Shown: one piece after another, positions 2,774 to 23,563 of the stretch | How positions within the stretch are numbered: the first letter of the stretch is position 1 | Layout: every line of letters starts with the position of its first letter | Source: a bacterium | GTDB lineage: Bacteria > JAHJDO01 | Direction of reading: 5' to 3' | Assembly: GCA_030611945.1 (NCBI GenBank) | Contig: JAUWOV010000007.1 | Span: forward strand, 1 to 31,273 | DNA: 31,273 bases | Position numbers and translations under genes: made by a program | The notes under the pieces: model-generated | What the model was told of the DNA's origin: nothing | Database searches by the model: none | The model's input: the letters and a program-made list of their open reading frames with translations, nothing else

Positions 2774-5392
2774 ATGCAAAGCAACCAGATTAGAAAATCT
2801 TTTTTAGAATTCTTTAAGAACAAAGGACATACTGTTCTTTCCAGCGCTTCATTGGTTCCTGCGCAGGATAGGACACTGCTCTTCACAAATGCAGGTATGA
2901 ACCAGTTTAAGGACGTATTTCTAGGTCAGGGCTCACGTAATTACAAACGCGTAGCAAACTCTCAGAAATGCATAAGGGTCAGCGGGAAACATAATGACTT
3001 GGAAGATGTTGGTCATGACAGTCATCATCATACCTTTTTTGAAATGCTTGGTAACTGGTCATTTGGCGATTATTTTAAGAAAGAAGCAATTAGCCTGGCA
3101 TGGGAATTGCTCACTGAAGTATGGAAACTGCCAAAGGAAAAGCTCTGGGTAACTGTATATGAGACAGATGAAGAATCCTTTCATTATTGGAAGACAGAAA
3201 CAGATATTGATATCAGCCATATTCTCCGCTTTGGTAAAAAAGAAAACTTCTGGGATATGGGAGAGACTGGACCATGTGGCCCGTGTTCAGAGATACATAT
3301 TGATCTAACAGAAAACGACTGTGATAAATCTTTAATCAACGCCAATAATCCAGATGTCTTAGAGCTGTGGAACCTGGTGTTTATACAGTATAACCGTAAG
3401 GATGATGGCTCTCTGGAGGAGTTGCCTTCAAGACACGTGGATACTGGCATGGGACTTGAGCGTATATCAAGGGTATTACAAAATGTGAAATCAAACTATG
3501 ACACAGATCTGTTTAAGCCTATTATTGAGGCTGTATGCGAAATTTCAGAAAAGCCATATAGCGATAAATATGTTACGGCAATACAGGTAATTGTTGATCA
3601 TATACGCGCTCTGGTGTTTGCAATAGCAGATGGAGTAATGCCCTCAAACGAGGGAAGAGGATATGTGCTCAGACGGCTTATAAGAAGAGCATCAAGAAGG
3701 GGGAATATACTTCAGCTTAATCAGCCATTTTTATACAGGCTGGTTGGTTCCGTTGTAAATATTATGAAGGATGCATATCCTGAGCTGGAGACGCAAAGAG
3801 AGCAGATAAGCCTTATACTTAAGAGCGAGGAAGAGCGCTTCCAGAAAACACTTCTGCAGGGGATAAACCTGTTTCAGGAGCTTGTTAAGCATGTTAAAGG
3901 GGATAAGAAAAAACTCATTAGCGGAGAGAGTGCATTCAAACTATACGATACATTCGGTTTTCCCATTGATCTTACATGTGAAATGGCCAGAGAGCAAAAG
4001 CTTGAAGTAGATATAGAGGCATTTAATAAAGAAATGGACAAACAAAGACAGCGAGGTATTGATTCAAGGCAGGATAAAATTTCAGGTAAAGAAAAGACTT
4101 CTTTTAAGCAAAGCACTCTATTTACAGGATATGATAAGTATTCTGATAATGCGCAGATATTATGTATTCTAAAGGATGGCAAAAGAACCGATAAAGCAAA
4201 ACAACAGGATGACATTGAGCTAATACTTGATAAGACATGTTTTTACGCTGAATCAGGAGGCCAGATTGGGGATACAGGCTCCGTTTCTACAGAAGATTGC
4301 GACATACAGGTAAAAGATACTTATAAAATAGCTAATACATTTATTCACAAAGCCAAAGTTTCTAAAGGTATAATCAAAGTTGGTGATGTTGTAACTACAT
4401 CTATTGATATAGCCAGACGCAAGAGAATTGCAAAGCATCACAGTTCAGCGCATCTTCTTCAATACGCGCTTCGACAAGTTCTTGGCAAGCACATCCAGCA
4501 GGCTGGATCATGGGTTGGAGAGAAAAGAATGCGATTCGATTTTAACCATTTTAAGGCTATTAGCAATGATAAGCTTAATCGTATTGAAAAAATTGTAAAC
4601 CAAAAGATTATGGAACTTGTTGAGGTAAAAACCTTTGATACCTCTATGAAGAAAGCTAAGGAGCTTGGAGCCATTGCCTTATTCAATGAGAAATATGGGG
4701 AGACTGTAAGAGTTGTTCAGATGGGCGATTTCAGTATGGAACTATGTGGAGGCACGCATGTAGAAAATACAGGAGAAATAGGATTGTTTAGAATAATCTC
4801 TGATAGTTCAATTGCTTCTGGTGTAAGAAGAATTGAGGCCTCATGTGGTGAGGCCTCACATAATATTATGAAAGAAGAGCAGGAAATTCTTTCAGAAACT
4901 TCTCATCTCTTACGTGTTCCTGTATCTGAAATACCAAGCAGAATAGAAACACTCATAAAAAACCATAAAGAGCTTGAAAAACAGATCAAAAAATTTAAAA
5001 GCAAACAAGTAATGACAAATATAGATGATTTCATTAAGAAAGCCATTACAATAGATAATGTAAAACTAGTTTGTGCGTCTCTGAAGAATATGGGGCATGA
5101 GGCATTGAGAGCCCTTGCAGATGCATTAAAGAGAAAGCTGGGTTCAGGTATAGTAGTGCTTGGATCTGTAAAGGACAATAAAGTATGCCTTGTAACAGCA
5201 GTAACTTCTGACCTTGTGTCTAAAGGCTTGCATGCCGGAAAGATCATTAAAGAAGTCGCGCAGATTACAGGCGGTAGCGGCGGCGGCAGACCGGACATGG
5301 CGCAAGCAGGAGGAAAGGATGCCTCAAAGCTTGCTCAGGCTTTAAAACAGGTTCCTGAAATAATAAAAAAATTCTTAATAGAAGGCAAGTAA
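2774..5392 (+). CDS. alaS: Alanyl-tRNA synthetase
   Basis: AlaRS charges tRNA-Ala in the cytoplasm and clears mischarged serine and glycine. The 872 residues match the full bacterial length. The class II catalytic core is at the N-terminus (FTNAGMNQFKDVFLG, the HHTFFEMLGNWSFGDYF motif, GETGPCGPCSEIH, DTGMGLERI). The editing domain carries the HHSSAHLLQYALR zinc motif (around residue 556) and the distal CGGTHVENTGEIG motif. The C-terminal DHHA1/C-Ala domain ends with the glycine-rich GGSGGGRPDMAQAGGKD. There is no strong Shine-Dalgarno; translation is probably coupled to recA, which ends 11 bases upstream. The next ORF starts 3 bases after the stop. Confidence 0.98.
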   Translation: MQSNQIRKSFLEFFKNKGHTVLSSASLVPAQDRTLLFTNAGMNQFKDVFLGQGSRNYKRVANSQKCIRVSGKHNDLEDVGHDSHHHTFFEMLGNWSFGDYFKKEAISLAWELLTEVWKLPKEKLWVTVYETDEESFHYWKTETDIDISHILRFGKKENFWDMGETGPCGPCSEIHIDLTENDCDKSLINANNPDVLELWNLVFIQYNRKDDGSLEELPSRHVDTGMGLERISRVLQNVKSNYDTDLFKPIIEAVCEISEKPYSDKYVTAIQVIVDHIRALVFAIADGVMPSNEGRGYVLRRLIRRASRRGNILQLNQPFLYRLVGSVVNIMKDAYPELETQREQISLILKSEEERFQKTLLQGINLFQELVKHVKGDKKKLISGESAFKLYDTFGFPIDLTCEMAREQKLEVDIEAFNKEMDKQRQRGIDSRQDKISGKEKTSFKQSTLFTGYDKYSDNAQILCILKDGKRTDKAKQQDDIELILDKTCFYAESGGQIGDTGSVSTEDCDIQVKDTYKIANTFIHKAKVSKGIIKVGDVVTTSIDIARRKRIAKHHSSAHLLQYALRQVLGKHIQQAGSWVGEKRMRFDFNHFKAISNDKLNRIEKIVNQKIMELVEVKTFDTSMKKAKELGAIALFNEKYGETVRVVQMGDFSMELCGGTHVENTGEIGLFRIISDSSIASGVRRIEASCGEASHNIMKEEQEILSETSHLLRVPVSEIPSRIETLIKNHKELEKQIKKFKSKQVMTNIDDFIKKAITIDNVKLVCASLKNMGHEALRALADALKRKLGSGIVVLGSVKDNKVCLVTAVTSDLVSKGLHAGKIIKEVAQITGGSGGGRPDMAQAGGKDASKLAQALKQVPEIIKKFLIEGK

Positions 5393-7250: not shown

Positions 7251-7527
7251 ATTCTGCCGTACTAGATGGGGAGATAGCGGTGTCCTGATTTCCGAGGTAA
7301 ACTTGGGATGACCTGCAATCCGCTACAGCAGGGTTGAATTCCCTCTTGAGGTCAATGTGTCTTTTGGAAGGGTGTTGGATAAGCAGTGATGAAGGCTGGA
7401 TCCCATGCGGCAAAAGTTTGCGAACCCCGTTAGACCCGGAAGGGAGCAGCGGTAAGCAAATACTTTTGGGTGTTGTGGGGATATCTAGCTGGAGCCGGCT
7501 GTTGAATAACTAGCTAAAAGGCAGGAT
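7251..7527 (+). ncRNA. ffs: Large bacterial signal recognition particle RNA (Alu plus S domain)
   Basis: This 277-base segment contains no credible protein gene and matches the large (Bacillus scRNA-like) SRP RNA. The terminal helix is formed by ATTCTGCC (7251-7258) and GGCAGGAT (7520-7527), with one G-U pair. The 5' Alu domain shows GGGGAGATAGCGGTG and ACCTGCAATCCGCT followed by AGCAGGG. The S domain has stem GTTTGC/GCAAAT enclosing the asymmetric internal loop, and the apical CCGGAAGG tetraloop followed by GAGCAGCGGTAA, which binds Ffh. SRP targets nascent membrane proteins to the translocase. Compared with the Bacillus RNA as I remember it, there is an insertion of roughly 20 bases near 7287-7310 in the Alu domain. 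The dnaX start codon is 37 bases past the 3' end. I see no clear terminator there, so the two may be co-transcribed. Confidence 0.93.
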
Positions 7528-7564
7528 CAATGGATGGTGTGCGGCGGATTTATAAGAGGTAGTT

Positions 7565-9262
7565 ATGTCATATTTGGTACTTGCAAGAAAATGGAGACCT
7601 AAGGAGTTCTCAGGACTTATTGGGCAGGAACATGTAACTAAAACGCTGGTAAATGCTGTAACGTCAGGGCATTTAGCGCATGCTTATATATTCAGCGGAC
7701 CAAGAGGTATTGGCAAAACCTCTACAGCAAGGATACTTGCTAAAGCACTCAATTGCCCGCAGGTAAAAGACGCAGTGCCGTGTAATAAATGCAGTATATG
7801 TCTTGAAATTGCAGAAGGTAACAATATTGATGTTATTGAAATAGACGGCGCCTCTAATAGAGGAATTGATGAGATTAGAAATTTACGTGATAATGTCAGA
7901 TATACACCATCCCAGGGGAAACATAAGGTTTATATAATAGATGAAGTTCATATGCTCACAACAGAAGCGTTTAATGCATTACTCAAAACATTAGAAGAGC
8001 CATCGGAACATGTTAAATTCATATTCGCAACAACAGAGCCTCATAAGATTCCTTTAACCATTCTGTCCCGCTGTCAGCACTTCTCATTTAAAAGAATACA
8101 AACACAGGATCTGGTAAAACATTTAAGACATATGGTTAAAGCTGAGAAAATCAAAGTAACCGATGAAGCCCTGTTTTTAATAGCAAAAAACGCAGACGGC
8201 AGTATACGGGATGCCCAAAGTGTGCTGGATCAATTGGTTTCCTTCTCTCCGGATAAGGAAATTACTGCGCATACTGCAAACAGTCTTTTGGGCTTAGTCA
8301 GCCAGGATATATATTTTCAGTTTGCTGAGAATATATTGCATAATGATATTGTTAAATTATTAATACTGGTTGATAAATTAGTAAACGAAGGAAGAGACAT
8401 AGGACAGGTGGCAAATGGGCTCATTAACTATTTTAGGAACTTGTTTTTCATTAGTCTTGGAAAGCAGGGAGAAGACTTGATAGATGTGTCTCGGGATACA
8501 AAAGAGACATTAGTAAATCAGGCAAATCAGTTTCAAAAAGGCCGGTTGTGGCAGATTTTAGAGATGGTCTCTTCTCTTGAAAAAAATATAAGAACAACAA
8601 GAACCCCCAGAGCTTTTCTTGAAATTGCGATGATTAAAATAGTTAATACTATGTCTCCTGTTATGCTGGGGGAAATTGTAGAAAAATTAACGGAATTAGA
8701 AAAAAAATTGGGGACAGGAAGCGCGTACTCTATTTCCGAACCTTCTCCAGAGCCAATTTCCCGTCCGCTTCAACAGCAGAAAATAGTTCAAGAGAAACCA
8801 GCTCAAGCAGAACCGGTTTCACATCCGCATGAAGAACAAAAGCCCGAACAACAGGATTTAACAATAGATATTGTAAAACAAAAGTGGCCAAAAATAATCT
8901 CCACATTAAAAAAACAAAAAATGATATTGGGAGTCTTTTTGTCGGAAGGGGCTCCTATAAACCTGAAAATGAGTACGTTGGAAATTGGATTTGGACCAAA
9001 CGCCAGATTATTCTTGGAAAAGGTTGAAGCTGAAAGAAAATTTATTGAGGAGACATTATTAGAAGTATTGGGACATAATATAACTGCAAGATGTGTGCCT
9101 GTGGGAAAAGATAACCATACGTTCAAAAATAATGAGGGCTCTAAAAATAAGCAAGCTGAAGAACAGAATGAAAAATTACTAAACAATCCTGCAGTCAAAA
9201 CTGTTATGGAAAAGTTTGAAGCTAAAGTGGTTAAAATTACTAAAAAAAAGGAGGGAATATAA
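7565..9262 (+). CDS. dnaX: DNA polymerase III subunit gamma/tau
   Basis: DnaX is the AAA+ motor of the clamp loader that places the beta sliding clamp on DNA. The 565 residues start with the family signature LARKWRPKEFSGLIGQEHV. Walker A GPRGIGKTS spans about 45-53, the zinc-binding Cys are at 64, 73, 76 and 79, and the Walker B region is VYIIDEVHML, followed by sensor 1 FATTEPHKIP and the arginine finger LSRCQ. Domain III runs to about 365. The remainder is a Pro/Gln/Lys-rich linker and a C-terminal region resembling tau. A run of eight A (8700-8707) lies near codon 380, close to where gamma-forming frameshifts occur in other bacteria, but neither shifted frame stops at once. Start: ATG after an AGAGG Shine-Dalgarno-like sequence. 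Confidence 0.96.
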   Translation: MSYLVLARKWRPKEFSGLIGQEHVTKTLVNAVTSGHLAHAYIFSGPRGIGKTSTARILAKALNCPQVKDAVPCNKCSICLEIAEGNNIDVIEIDGASNRGIDEIRNLRDNVRYTPSQGKHKVYIIDEVHMLTTEAFNALLKTLEEPSEHVKFIFATTEPHKIPLTILSRCQHFSFKRIQTQDLVKHLRHMVKAEKIKVTDEALFLIAKNADGSIRDAQSVLDQLVSFSPDKEITAHTANSLLGLVSQDIYFQFAENILHNDIVKLLILVDKLVNEGRDIGQVANGLINYFRNLFFISLGKQGEDLIDVSRDTKETLVNQANQFQKGRLWQILEMVSSLEKNIRTTRTPRAFLEIAMIKIVNTMSPVMLGEIVEKLTELEKKLGTGSAYSISEPSPEPISRPLQQQKIVQEKPAQAEPVSHPHEEQKPEQQDLTIDIVKQKWPKIISTLKKQKMILGVFLSEGAPINLKMSTLEIGFGPNARLFLEKVEAERKFIEETLLEVLGHNITARCVPVGKDNHTFKNNEGSKNKQAEEQNEKLLNNPAVKTVMEKFEAKVVKITKKKEGI

Positions 9263-18851: not shown

Positions 18852-19094
18852 ATGTCTAAGGTGGTAACATTGCGGTTATTAGAAGAAGAATACGAAAAAA
18901 TATCAGCTGCGGCTGTGGTTGAGCATCGTCCAATTTCTAATTTTATTACAGCCATGGTATTAAGAGATATAGAGGAGTCCTATTATCTGGATCCTATTGA
19001 GATGGCGCAGATAAATTCAGATAAAAGATTATTAGGAAAGCTCAAAGCCGGGCATGCTGATGTCAAAAAGAGAGCAGGCAGGTTCGTTGAGTAA
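18852..19094 (+). CDS. Ribbon-helix-helix antitoxin
   Basis: The product is an 80-residue protein. The N-terminal KVVTLRLLEEEYEKISAAA followed by RPISNFITAMVLRDIEE is the beta strand-helix-helix pattern of RHH (CopG/MetJ-like) DNA-binding dimers. The charged C-terminal part should wrap and neutralise the toxin. It is followed by, and overlaps, a RelE-type toxin gene. The start ATG 18852 has AGGAGAGG upstream. The GAATA repeat array that precedes it is the likely autoregulatory operator. The toxin family pairing is inferred from context and fold pattern. Confidence 0.82.
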   Translation: MSKVVTLRLLEEEYEKISAAAVVEHRPISNFITAMVLRDIEESYYLDPIEMAQINSDKRLLGKLKAGHADVKKRAGRFVE

Positions 19095-19365
19095 GTTCAA
19101 CATCCTTGAAACAAATCAATTCTTGAAGGATCTCGCCAAAGATTTTAGCGGTCAACAGGAACGAATAAAAAGAAAACTCACCACCTATGTTTATCCGCAA
19201 TTAAAACAAAACCCATATTTTGGCAAAAACATAAAGAAACTCATTAACTATCGTCCTGAAACATGGCGGTATAGAATAGGAAATTGGCGATTTTTTTACG
19301 AAATTGATGAGAAGGAAAAGACAGTTTTCATGCTGGCTGCAGACAGCCGCCAGAATGCGTATTGA
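19054..19365 (+). CDS. RelE/ParE-family toxin
   Basis: The product is a small basic protein of the RelE/ParE fold. The helical part is FLKDLAKDFSGQQERIKRKL, and the core strands are WRYRIGNWRFFYEID and KTVFMLAADSRQNAY, with the usual pattern of basic residues on the strands. RelE members cleave mRNA on the ribosome and ParE members poison gyrase; the sequence alone does not decide. The frame opens at ATG 19054 (103 residues, 41-base overlap with the antitoxin), but the conserved fold begins at SKFNILETNQ. TTG 19087 (8-base overlap) or ATG 19060 may therefore be the true start. Confidence 0.8.
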   Translation: MLMSKREQAGSLSKFNILETNQFLKDLAKDFSGQQERIKRKLTTYVYPQLKQNPYFGKNIKKLINYRPETWRYRIGNWRFFYEIDEKEKTVFMLAADSRQNAY

Positions 19366-19401: not shown

Positions 19402-19420
19402 TTTTGCGTAATATGCAAAA
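19402..19420. repeat. Inverted repeat TTTTGC/GCAAAA upstream of the fusion transposase gene
   Basis: TTTTGC (19402-19407) and GCAAAA (19415-19420) are perfect arms around a 7-base AT-rich centre, in the 107-base gap between the toxin gene and the fusion gene. It could be an operator, a weak hairpin or part of an element end. I found no matching sequence after 22283, so a transposon terminus is not supported. Confidence 0.4.
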
Positions 19421-19472
19421 AAGCGTTTGGCTGTAATGTTGAAATAAATAATACCAAAAAAGAGAGAACATT

Positions 19473-22283
19473 ATGGTGAATAACGCTATCAATTTTGAAG
19501 TTGTAGTAGCGTATTCTCATTGTCCTCGAAAAGCATTCCTTCTTCTATTCAGTGCCGACAAGAAAGAACCTCACGAGTACGTGCGCATTCTTGAAAATCA
19601 GGCGAACATTAGTCGGACCAAATATCTAAACGTCCTCAAGCAAGATAATATCGGGGTGAGCCACTATGACCCCGACAATATCGAGAACAGTAGTAATTTT
19701 CTAGTCGAAGCAACGCTCAAGACTCATAGTTTAGAAGCTTACTGCGATGTGCTAACGAAAGTGGGAAGTAGTTCATCTTTCGGCAAACACAGTTATGAAC
19801 CAACGATTGTCATTGGAACGCACACCATTACGAAAGAGCAGAAAATCAAGTTAGCGTTTATTGGTCATGTCCTCGGGCAAGTGCAGAACAAACTTCCTGT
19901 AGCTGGAACCATCATTGGGGCAGAAAAGCAAACTCATAAAGTAAAACTGGATAGTATTTACAGGAAACTTAGACCGATCATCCAAACTTTGAAAGAATGG
20001 ATAACAACATCACTCTCAGAACCACCTCCGGTCATTTTAAACAGGTACTGCCCATACTGCCAATTTTGGAATGAATGCAGAGAGAAAGCAGAGAAAGATG
20101 ACGACCTTAGCCTGCTTGATCGGATGACTCCAAAGCTTATTCAGCGATACCACAAGAAGGGCATTTTCACAGTTAACCAGCTCTCCTATTTATTTAAGCC
20201 AAGAAGAAACCGAAAGCGAACGAAAAAGACACATGTGCATTTTAACCCAGAGTTGCAAGCTTTGGCGATAAGGACAGGGAAAATATACATTCAAGAACTC
20301 CCAGAATTGCCCCGACCTCGAGTCGAACTGTTTTGGGACGTCGAGGGCATACCAGACCAAAACTTCTACTATCTGATGGGACTACTGGTGTGTAAGAGCG
20401 GGAACAATACCTATCATTCCTTCTGGGCAAACACCGTCCAAGACGAAAAGCGAATCTGGGGTGAGCTTCTTGAAAAGGCAAGTAGCTATCCTGATGCTCC
20501 CATCTATCATTACGGCAGTTATGAGCTAAGAGCTCTTGATAGACTGGCAAAAAGATACCAGACAAATAGGGATGTCTTCAAAGAGCGTTTGGTCAACATC
20601 AATTCGTTCATCTATAGCAAGGTGTATTTTCCACTAAAATCAAACAAACTGAAGGAGTTGGGCAAGTTTGTAGGTGCATTCTGGACATCTCCTGATGCAT
20701 CCGGGCTACAAAGTCTTGTTTGGCGACATCGCTGGGAAGAAACCCAAAATGGCAATTACAAGCAGACGTTGGTTACGTACAATGAAGAGGACTGCCGAGC
20801 TCTACAGTTATTGACTGAACAGCTTTCGAAGATAAGAGATGCGGCTGATTCACAGATGAATATTGATTTTGCTGATCGGCCAAAACAGAACACAACAGAA
20901 AGAGGCAGCGAAATTCACGGGGAATTTGAGCAGATACTGAGAACTGCACACGCTGATTACAGCAGTAACAGGATAAGCATTCAGTCAAAAAGAAGCAAGG
21001 AAAGTGCTGAAAACAAGAAGTGTGGTGCACCGAAAGGTCACCAAGCGTATAATAGAATAGTCCCTTCAAGGGCAGGGAAAGTTATTCGAGTACCAATGCG
21101 GAGAAAATGTCCGAAGCATAAAGGTGAGCCTCTCCAGAGATTGGATGAAATGGCTGAAAAAACCGTTATTGATCTTCAGTTTACAAAGAGCGGATGCAGA
21201 AAAACAGTTACAAAGTATGTAGGCACAAAAGGATACTGTCAAAGGTGTTGCGTGTATTATGCTTCACATGGTATACAAAAACTCGGTCGTCAATTGTTTG
21301 GGCATGCCTTTCAAGCATGGGCAATCTATCAAAGAATAATCCTTCGTTTACCGTATCGTATAATTACTCAAGTGATGGAGGATTTATTTGGTGAGAGAAC
21401 AAGTGAAGGTACCATCATAAATTTCATGAGGCACTTTGCTGAATACTATGCTTCTACCGAGAAGGTTCTGGTTCAACGCATTCTCAAAAGTCCTTTTATT
21501 CACGTTGACGAGACAAAAATTAACATACAAGGTACGGATCATTACGTATGGGTATTTACAGACGGAAAGCATGTAGTTTTCAAGATGACTGAAACGCGAG
21601 AGGCTGCTATTGCACATGATTTTGTAGTAAACTATGAGGGAGTGCTGATATCTGATTTCTATCCTGGCTACGACTCCGTAAAGTGCAAACAACAAAAATG
21701 CTTGGTCCATTTAATCCGAGATATCAACGATGATCTCTGGAATGTACCATTCAACACGGAATTCGAGTCATTTATTTTTGAGGTGAAGAACCTGCTCGTA
21801 CCCATTTTTGAAGCAGTCGAGAAGTACGGATTAAAAAAGAGAAATCTCAATAAGTTTAAGAAGTCTGTAGAACAGTTCTACGAGAAGAATATTGTTGACA
21901 GAGACTATAAATCCGAACTAACAATTAAATATCAGAAACGCTTTCAACGCTATAAAGAAAGCCTATTCACGTTTCTCGAACAGGACTCTATACCGTGGAA
22001 CAATAACATGGCAGAAAGAGCTCTCAGGCATCTCGCCGTACAAAGGAAGATATCAGGAATATTCTTCGAACATCCAGTTCCTCAATACCTACAGATGCTC
22101 GGTATTGCACAAACCTGCAGATTCCAAGACAAATCGTTTCTCAAATTCCTCATATCCAAAGAAAAAGACATCGACAAGTTTAGGGCAACCAAGCGTTTAA
22201 ACATCTCAAGGCCCACTGGCTCACCAAGAAATAAGGTAGACAATGATGACATTCCTACCCCAGAGCAAAGCTCAGAATGTTAG
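19473..22283 (+). CDS. Fusion: RecB/Cas4-like (TM0106-type) domain + RNase H-like domain + IS66-family DDE transposase
   Basis: The 936 residues are one unbroken frame. Part 1 (about 1-205) resembles TM0106/Cas4-like RecB nucleases: four Cys that could hold an Fe-S cluster (17, 193, 196, 202), Asp92 and YEP at 108-110. The usual E/D-x-K of the active site is not evident (IVIGTH there). Part 2 (about 283-450) is an RNase H-like exonuclease domain of the same family: DVEG (Asp289, Glu291), HYGSYE and YNEED (Asp440). The middle acidic position, usually VDL, reads VNI (Asn375). Part 3 (about 510-895) is a full IS66 transposase: CGAPKGHQ, a Cys-rich zinc region (546-593), and DDE residues Asp679 (HVDET), Asp728 (ISDFYPGY) and Glu848 (NNMAERALR). 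No IS66 TnpA or TnpB is nearby. Codon use (more CTC, CGA, CCG) looks unlike the core genes. Confidence 0.88.
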   Translation: MVNNAINFEVVVAYSHCPRKAFLLLFSADKKEPHEYVRILENQANISRTKYLNVLKQDNIGVSHYDPDNIENSSNFLVEATLKTHSLEAYCDVLTKVGSSSSFGKHSYEPTIVIGTHTITKEQKIKLAFIGHVLGQVQNKLPVAGTIIGAEKQTHKVKLDSIYRKLRPIIQTLKEWITTSLSEPPPVILNRYCPYCQFWNECREKAEKDDDLSLLDRMTPKLIQRYHKKGIFTVNQLSYLFKPRRNRKRTKKTHVHFNPELQALAIRTGKIYIQELPELPRPRVELFWDVEGIPDQNFYYLMGLLVCKSGNNTYHSFWANTVQDEKRIWGELLEKASSYPDAPIYHYGSYELRALDRLAKRYQTNRDVFKERLVNINSFIYSKVYFPLKSNKLKELGKFVGAFWTSPDASGLQSLVWRHRWEETQNGNYKQTLVTYNEEDCRALQLLTEQLSKIRDAADSQMNIDFADRPKQNTTERGSEIHGEFEQILRTAHADYSSNRISIQSKRSKESAENKKCGAPKGHQAYNRIVPSRAGKVIRVPMRRKCPKHKGEPLQRLDEMAEKTVIDLQFTKSGCRKTVTKYVGTKGYCQRCCVYYASHGIQKLGRQLFGHAFQAWAIYQRIILRLPYRIITQVMEDLFGERTSEGTIINFMRHFAEYYASTEKVLVQRILKSPFIHVDETKINIQGTDHYVWVFTDGKHVVFKMTETREAAIAHDFVVNYEGVLISDFYPGYDSVKCKQQKCLVHLIRDINDDLWNVPFNTEFESFIFEVKNLLVPIFEAVEKYGLKKRNLNKFKKSVEQFYEKNIVDRDYKSELTIKYQKRFQRYKESLFTFLEQDSIPWNNNMAERALRHLAVQRKISGIFFEHPVPQYLQMLGIAQTCRFQDKSFLKFLISKEKDIDKFRATKRLNISRPTGSPRNKVDNDDIPTPEQSSEC

Positions 22284-23477
22284 GTATTACTTTCCAGAAG
22301 ATTACCGAAAGTATTGAGAAGATTAGTACTGGAAGCAATATTAGGAATACATACCAGAGGCTCAGTAAAGTTAACAGAGATTGGAAGATCCTTGAAAGAA
22401 CCAATTCCATTAGGTAAGACCCAAAATAGAATATGCAGGCAGTTGGGGAAGGATAATATCAAAGAAGTGGTAGGAGATAATATTCTGGAAGAAGGAAGCA
22501 GTAGAATAAGAAAGAACAGTCTATTAATACTGGATATATCAGACATAACTAAGAAATATGCAGAAAAGATGGAACATTTAGCAAGGGTGAGAGATGGGAG
22601 TTCTGGGGAAATCACAAATGGCTACTGGACAATGAATATAGTAGGAGCAGAACTTGATAAGGGGAAAATAACACCGTTGCATACACATCTCTATTCGCAG
22701 AAAAGTCCTGAATTCGTAAGTGAAAATGTAGAGATAATAAATGCAGTAGATAGAGTAATTAAACATACAAGAGAAAGAGGTGTTTGGACAATTGATCGTG
22801 GCGGAGACAGGGAAAGAGGAGTAATAGCTCCTTTAATGAGAAGAGGACAGAGATTTATTATCAGGATGGTAGGCAGCAGGGATTTGATATACAAAGGAAG
22901 AAAAGTAAATGCGTTTGAATTAGCAACGTCTTGCAGGATGCTTTTTGCAGAAAGGCTAATCCGAGAGGATAAAAAAAGAGAAAAAAGTTACCATATAGAA
23001 TTTGGATTCCGCAGAGTAAAATTACCTGGATTTAAGAAAGAGAATCTAAATATGGTAGTAGTAAATGGATTTGGGAAAAAGCCGATGATGCTCTTAACGA
23101 GCATAGAGGTTACCAAAAGCAGAAAATCATTACTTTCAATAGTACTTTCATACATAAGGCGATGGCAGATAGAGGAAACGATACGATTTTGCAAACAGAG
23201 TTGCAATTTGGAAGATGTGCGATTATTAACTTATAGACGGCTACAAAACATGATGGTGTTGGTATGGGGAGCGATGTATTTTTCGACAGTATGGCTTGGA
23301 GACAGGATAAAGCTATCAATATTAGCTCATTATGCACTTAAATCAGCAAAGAGGCTGTTTGGGATACCTGATTTTAGATACTATGCTATTGCAGATGGTA
23401 TTAAAGAGATACTTGCGGGATACTCTAAGCGTATAAGACTTCCTGCTAGAGCAGATCCACAGATGTCGCTTTTTTGA
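22284..23477 (+). CDS. IS4-family transposase (DDE, YREK signature), 5' end unclear
   Basis: The frame is open from 22284, directly after the TAG of the preceding gene and in the same frame. A TTG at 22314 gives 387 residues. The N-terminal ILGIHTRGSVKLTEIGRSL matches the start of IS4-type transposases. The catalytic elements are LLILDISDITK (first Asp), TIDRGGDRERG (second Asp), and YIRRWQIEETIRFCK, a perfect Y-x2-R-x3-E-x6-K signature with the catalytic Glu. Family N-termini usually extend 20-40 residues further upstream, so the true start may be lost, frameshifted or provided by readthrough. An ATG at 22277 opens a different frame that ends at 22417. I could not define terminal inverted repeats. 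Confidence 0.87.
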   Translation, partial: VLLSRRLPKVLRRLVLEAILGIHTRGSVKLTEIGRSLKEPIPLGKTQNRICRQLGKDNIKEVVGDNILEEGSSRIRKNSLLILDISDITKKYAEKMEHLARVRDGSSGEITNGYWTMNIVGAELDKGKITPLHTHLYSQKSPEFVSENVEIINAVDRVIKHTRERGVWTIDRGGDRERGVIAPLMRRGQRFIIRMVGSRDLIYKGRKVNAFELATSCRMLFAERLIREDKKREKSYHIEFGFRRVKLPGFKKENLNMVVVNGFGKKPMMLLTSIEVTKSRKSLLSIVLSYIRRWQIEETIRFCKQSCNLEDVRLLTYRRLQNMMVLVWGAMYFSTVWLGDRIKLSILAHYALKSAKRLFGIPDFRYYAIADGIKEILAGYSKRIRLPARADPQMSLF

Positions 23478-23563
23478 GCTCTGAAAAAATTGGGGATACT
23501 TCTGTAAAGAATCTGCTTGCCAATACAAGAAACTTTATGATAACATCAAAAACTAAAGTTGTA

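Follow-up and report, generated by a model that had tools for sequence, protein, structure and literature searches.

The locus described here raises the question of whether a nuclease module and an IS66 transposase that share one reading frame represent a lasting mobile-element architecture or an accident of a single genome. The gene lies in a stretch of 31,273 nucleotides, the whole of which we call the window. An earlier note on this DNA had read the gene as a single-frame fusion of Cas4/RecB-like and RNase H-like nuclease domains to an IS66 transposase, a new architecture in which transposition might be nuclease guided or nuclease regulated. The gene and its parts are as follows.

19473 to 22283, forward strand: fusion open reading frame of 936 amino acids, with an ATG start, a TAG stop, and no internal stop
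19473 to 20102, forward strand: Cas4-like domain (residues 1 to 210), whose four cysteines are almost invariant and whose PD-(D/E)XK site is degenerate; assigned from the fold match and residue counts
20319 to 20873, forward strand: DEDD 3'-5' exonuclease domain of the RNase_H_2 type (residues 283 to 467), with D289, E291, E351, and D440 conserved; assigned from Pfam and the fold match
20967 to 21059, forward strand: disordered linker (residues 499 to 529), with pLDDT under 50 in the structure model
21036 to 22154, forward strand: IS66 transposase (residues 522 to 894), with DDE residues D679, D728, and E848 and zinc-type cysteines C546, C589, and C592; assigned from profiles and Foldseek

Both halves are recognized by NCBIfam profiles, and both matches exceed the curated cutoffs. 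TIGR03491 matches residues 9 to 449 (E = 2.7e-77; 260.7 bits against a cutoff of 97.45), and transpos_IS66 (NF033517) matches residues 522 to 894 (E = 9.3e-56; 189.5 bits against a cutoff of 180). The corresponding Pfam matches are RNase_H_2 at residues 286 to 451 and DDE_Tnp_IS66 (PF03050) at residues 608 to 864 (124.4 bits against a cutoff of 23.1). With the frame intact across all 936 codons, the single-frame fusion of a TM0106-type protein to an IS66 transposase stands.

A structure model of the fusion protein had a mean pLDDT of 83.7 but a pTM of 0.54, and therefore its single domains can be trusted while their relative arrangement cannot; the earlier note had looked to such a model for interdomain contacts, and these stay uncertain. 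The best fold match for the N terminus (residues 1 to 210) was Cas4 in the Cas4/Cas1/Cas2 complex (7mi4; Z = 17.5, rmsd 3.2, 188 residues aligned). Residues 283 to 471 matched the exonuclease of a family B polymerase (5mdn; Z = 15.2, rmsd 4.5, 175 residues aligned), and family B DNA polymerase exonuclease domains generally matched with Z of 14 to 15. The top matches in a viral fold library were giant-virus proteins with RNase H-like domains. For the transposase, Foldseek returned the ISCth4 transposase as its best match (6xgx; E = 1.5e-7).

The fusion gene is single copy in its source genome, an assembly of 1.66 Mb in 119 contigs in which no second copy was found. Such a setting would suit a one-off gene fusion or an assembly artifact, an explanation that is refuted by dozens of independent assemblies, complete plasmid sequences among them, in which relatives share the junction; we reject it and regard its probability as negligible. 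The earlier note had itself proposed a search of other genomes as the way to check the fusion. Counting the window copy, we collected 44 full-length or near-full-length fusions, whose hosts include cyanobacteria, Bacteroidota, delta- and betaproteobacteria, a planctomycete, an ANME-1 bin, and Methanoperedens. A plasmid protein of Calothrix PCC 7716 is 57 to 58% identical to the window protein across 96% of its length, and an Acaryochloris plasmid protein is 33 to 34% identical. A one-genome-per-species scan revealed some twenty further fusions, with Paraburkholderia and Polaromonas as the betaproteobacterial carriers. Carriage is sporadic: of the 388 cyanobacterial genomes sampled, 11 have a member, and of the 295 from Bacteroidia only 3 do.

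The family is probably present in both Bacteria and Archaea. The copy in ANME-1 bin GoMg2 (L024) has 87% protein identity and the Methanoperedens copy (L025) 75%. The neighbors of L025 include an aconitase X gene, which presumably suits an archaeon; the contig of L024 is short (5.4 kb) and could have been misplaced by binning. No further archaeal copies were found among 58 genomes of the ANME-1 class and 149 of the Methanoperedens class. Phage records held no full-length member, and none was found in IMG/VR.

In a tree of the N-terminal halves, the 44 fusions and three transposase-less proteins form one clade (support 100/100), with the 25 solo TM0106 proteins of the comparison set outside it. 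The fusion label requires three changes on this tree, which we interpret as a single gain followed by two losses. The transposase halves (48 rows) also form one clade (100/100), which is separated from canonical IS66 by a branch of 1.78 changes per site; the placement of the canonical rows is unsure, since they are few and their branches long. The phylogenies point to what was probably a single fusion event, followed by two losses of the transposase.

Conservation of functional residues was counted across the 44 fusions, with the window protein included. The four cysteines to which the earlier note had drawn attention are almost invariant in the family, C17 being present in 43 of the 44 proteins and C193, C196, and C202 in every one. 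This conserved pattern is of the Fe-S type and makes the four residues candidates for holding a Cas4-like cluster. The PD-(D/E)XK site of the same domain is degenerate, with D92 retained in 25 of 44 fusions and E109 in 27 of 44, while the ExK lysine at position 111 is absent among the 44, and Mucilaginibacter-type members are without the core of the Cas4-like active site. Of the features expected of Cas4, the four-cysteine pattern and the fold are therefore present and the exonuclease site is degenerate. Solo cyanobacterial TM0106 proteins in the comparison likewise deviate from the canonical motif, and an intact PD-(D/E)XK site may thus not define the TM0106 family.

The DEDD site of the exonuclease domain is complete. 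D289, E291, and D440 occur in all 44 fusions, as does Y436, the tyrosine of the YxxxD motif, and position 351 always holds an acid (E in 40, D in 4). Because conservation extends to the DEDD tetrad but not to the active site of the Cas4/RecB type, the working nuclease is likely the PolB/DnaQ-type 3'-5' exonuclease and not the Cas4-like domain, so that the description of the module as a nuclease would apply to its RNase H-like part and needs qualifying for the Cas4/RecB-like site. A published classification places this exonuclease family among presumed 3'-5' exonucleases (PMC3985635). The IS66 residues D679, D728, and E848 are intact, as the earlier note had said, and almost invariant in the family; they are invariant in all fusions in which these positions are present, and the same is true of C546, C589, and C592.

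Between the window gene and L024, dN/dS was 0.28 for the Cas4-like domain, 0.19 for the exonuclease, 0.35 for the linker, and 0.16 for the IS66 domain, and it was below 1 in every other scorable pair. These ratios indicate that both halves are selected as protein, with purifying selection acting on all parts of the fusion.

The same residues bear on whether the nuclease module works as a nuclease at all. The N-terminal half might be a catalytically idle DNA-binding or assembly domain that positions the transposase, with neither nuclease site in use; end binding through the Fe-S domain alone is conceivable, and the degenerate Cas4-like site, whose core is missing in Mucilaginibacter-type members, would fit such a role. 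A purely structural role, however, needs none of the four DEDD acids, all of which are kept in 44 of 44 fusions, and we consider this reading unlikely.

The borders of the element were traced by DNA homology, which defines the following features in the window.

19417 to 22285, forward strand: element remnant with an intact left end, the fusion gene, and a missing right end; defined by homology to L024
19425 to 19435, forward strand: left terminal-repeat core, GTTTGGCTGTA, matching the 11-bp core of L024
22286 to 23512, forward strand: IS4-like element (open reading frame 22314 to 23477; Pfam DDE_Tnp_1) found where the fusion element would be expected to have its right end

The window is homologous to L024 from 19418 to 22240 (90%) and to L025 from 19477 to 22283 (79%), and the DNA beyond the left edge of homology is unrelated. 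In L024 the 11-bp core GTTTGGCNGTA is present at both element ends (GTTTGGCGGTA at 2142 to 2152, with an inverted copy at 5164 to 5174), together with an 8-bp target duplication, AAAATATT, at 2126 to 2133 and 5181 to 5188, which has no other copies in the 5.4-kb locus. Homology to the window starts at L024 position 2135, two bases past the left duplication, and thus agrees independently on the left end. The right end of L024, ahead of which lies an extra stretch of ~180 bp, was found partly by targeted looking. When the mononucleotides of both L024 flanks were shuffled 100,000 times, an 11-bp match arose 307 times, and only one shuffle combined such a match with an 8-bp direct repeat close by. 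L025 has the core at its right end, with one mismatch.

Across the family, the ends are less distinct. Over 40 loci, no general terminal repeats stood clearly above chance: the mean self inverted-repeat score was 8.15 and that of mismatched pairs 7.41, and shared base composition could account for the excess. Duplications of 8 bp were seen in 7 of 49 cases, with 6.3 expected, and no long conserved terminal repeats were detected in the family. The alignment of element ends that the earlier note had suggested thus gave ends and a duplication for L024 but no recognizable ends for most members. We therefore claim no general end structure, and the case for movement by the standard IS66 route depends on one well-defined element and the patchy distribution.

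The absence of recognizable ends at most loci would suit a domesticated or cargo-like defense or repair gene, in which invading DNA is the target of the exonuclease and the transposase half serves to recruit or integrate it, without moving an element of its own. Weak Cas4 profile matches fit this explanation, as do the Mucilaginibacter copies L044 and L045, which share one locus with 5 kb of conserved DNA. It is at odds with the lack of conserved neighbors, the sporadic distribution, the several broken copies, and the one copy (L024) with clean ends, and we give it little credence.

The explanation toward which we lean is that the fusion is the sole gene of a distinct IS66-related insertion sequence subfamily with a fixed N-terminal TM0106-type module, acting as proposed below. 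We prefer it because the fusions form one clade in both halves, are spread over distant phyla, are under selection throughout, conserve the exonuclease and DDE sites, and have no TnpA or TnpB neighbors, and because L024 has terminal repeats and an 8-bp target duplication. In this mechanism, the Cas4-like Fe-S domain, its own active site lost, would probably serve as a clamp that binds DNA ends or single strands. Cutting and joining of the element ends would fall to the DDE domain, and the exonuclease and clamp tethered to it would act on 3' ends or branched transposition intermediates. The exonuclease might trim flaps, remove flanking donor DNA, or help in gap repair, tasks that would otherwise be done by accessory proteins or host nucleases. 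We infer that the exonuclease probably acts on DNA ends during transposition, and transposition may be nuclease regulated.

No conserved neighbor genes accompany the fusion, except in copies at the same locus. A 179-aa open reading frame upstream in Calothrix was rejected as a partner, as it occurs only in copies at the same plasmid locus. A search with the PF05717 profile, which covers TnpB, found no TnpB gene in 11 of 15 carrier genomes, the window's included. IS66 members of the ISBst12 type have neither TnpA nor TnpB, and so their absence does not disqualify the fusion from IS66. Among near relatives, DNA homology reaches no more than about 55 bp upstream of the gene and a short way past its end, which leaves little space for a guide RNA gene; no Rfam match was associated with the element, and the analysis found neither a guide RNA nor conserved noncoding DNA in it. 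The idea of a nuclease-guided transposase was not borne out.

With IS66 TnpC, including the single-gene ISBst12-type members, the fusions have in common the DDE domain, its motifs, the profile match above cutoff, and, in L024, the 8-bp duplication. Unlike TnpC, they carry an N-terminal nuclease module of 460 residues, form a clade of their own on a long branch, and have no TnpA or TnpB neighbors. The module itself has the domain order of the TM0106/COG2251/TIGR03491 RecB-like proteins, a Cas4-like Fe-S domain followed by an RNase_H_2 exonuclease. Known TM0106-type proteins occur solo or with AAA domains, without a transposase (PMC3985635), and several from proteobacteria are about 1,100 aa long. 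The fusion clade and the solo cyanobacterial TM0106 proteins also differ at conserved sites, one of them position 375, which is N in all 44 fusions and D in all 52 solo proteins.

CRISPR adaptation (with its Cas4-Cas1 fusions and DnaQ-type trimming) and casposons offer analogous sets of a Cas4-like domain, a 3'-5' exonuclease, and a DNA integrase. In the fusion, by contrast, the integrase is an unrelated DDE enzyme and the Cas4-like active site is lost, and its loci, unlike those of CRISPR adaptation, have no conserved cas neighbors. The likeness, drawn by analogy, is one of logic only. That the protein is a DDE counterpart of CRISPR adaptation, in which a Cas4-like clamp, PolB/DnaQ-type trimming that sets the 3' end, and IS66 joining would give one polypeptide the ability to capture processed DNA, whether its own or foreign, and to insert it, strikes us as quite improbable.

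In our reading, the fusion proteins make up a new subfamily of IS66 that carries its own exonuclease. The claim of a new architecture agrees with the literature searched, in which we found no account of a TM0106-IS66 fusion, most subscription journals and ISfinder lying outside its coverage; the main text of a Cas4 phylogenomics paper (PMC5704561) mentions neither IS66 nor transposase. Here a DDE transposase has been stably joined to a Cas4-like domain and an exonuclease of the proofreading type, in what was apparently a single, ancient event, and the combination reached distant phyla, probably crossing between bacteria and archaea. This makes it a testable question whether some insertion sequences bring their own DNA-end processing, as in CRISPR adaptation and in casposons, which have an unrelated integrase. 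Because records say either "TM0106 nuclease" or "IS66 transposase," annotation needs correcting; the Calothrix protein is named "transposase IS66, putative" and the Acaryochloris protein "TM0106 family RecB-like putative nuclease."

In the window, loss of the right end has probably left the fusion copy unable to move on its own. The IS4-like element in its place ends in an imperfect inverted repeat (22286 to 22319 and 23480 to 23512), and no second copy of it was found in the genome. The DNA 3' of 23512 is the rpsB leader, common to three congeneric genomes; synteny starts abruptly there, and the DNA left of about 23500 is unmatched in the stretches upstream of rpsB in these three genomes. Upstream of the fusion element, at 18852 to 19365, genes for a 103-aa ParE/RelE-like toxin and an 80-aa DUF6290/TacA-like protein are probably a toxin-antitoxin pair.

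Several relatives depart from the standard architecture. One (L171, 1465 to 4197) is an apparent chimera, its N-terminal and transposase halves coming from different subclades and meeting somewhere between residues ~300 and ~440; this suggests exchange between modules. Three cyanobacterial copies (L035, 867 to 2351; L139, 3199 to 4674; L147, 4421 to 5839) are without everything before codons about 421 to 435. They break just ahead of exonuclease motif III, at points within about 43 bp of each other, and keep an intact transposase frame of 472 to 494 aa; the first comes after an apparently truncated hemN. In-frame stops in otherwise full-length copies from Xenococcus (L028, position 5921) and Acaryochloris (L023, position 8517) suggest decay. 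In Terriglobia, the two halves are separate genes on separate contigs (L183 and L184), each carrying on its 3' side an identical 208-bp stretch (8163 to 8370 and 7362 to 7569, respectively).

A 30-bp inverted repeat at the fusion locus of a deltaproteobacterial MAG (L140) was rejected as the ends of the element, as it belongs to a dispersed repeat of the host genome. This repeat, with ends like GGACTNTTCGGACCTACGTCC, was seen in 11 places (the L140 flanks and L153 to L163). Some of its inverted pairs lie about 117 to 140 bp apart, and it flanks the fusion gene on both sides.
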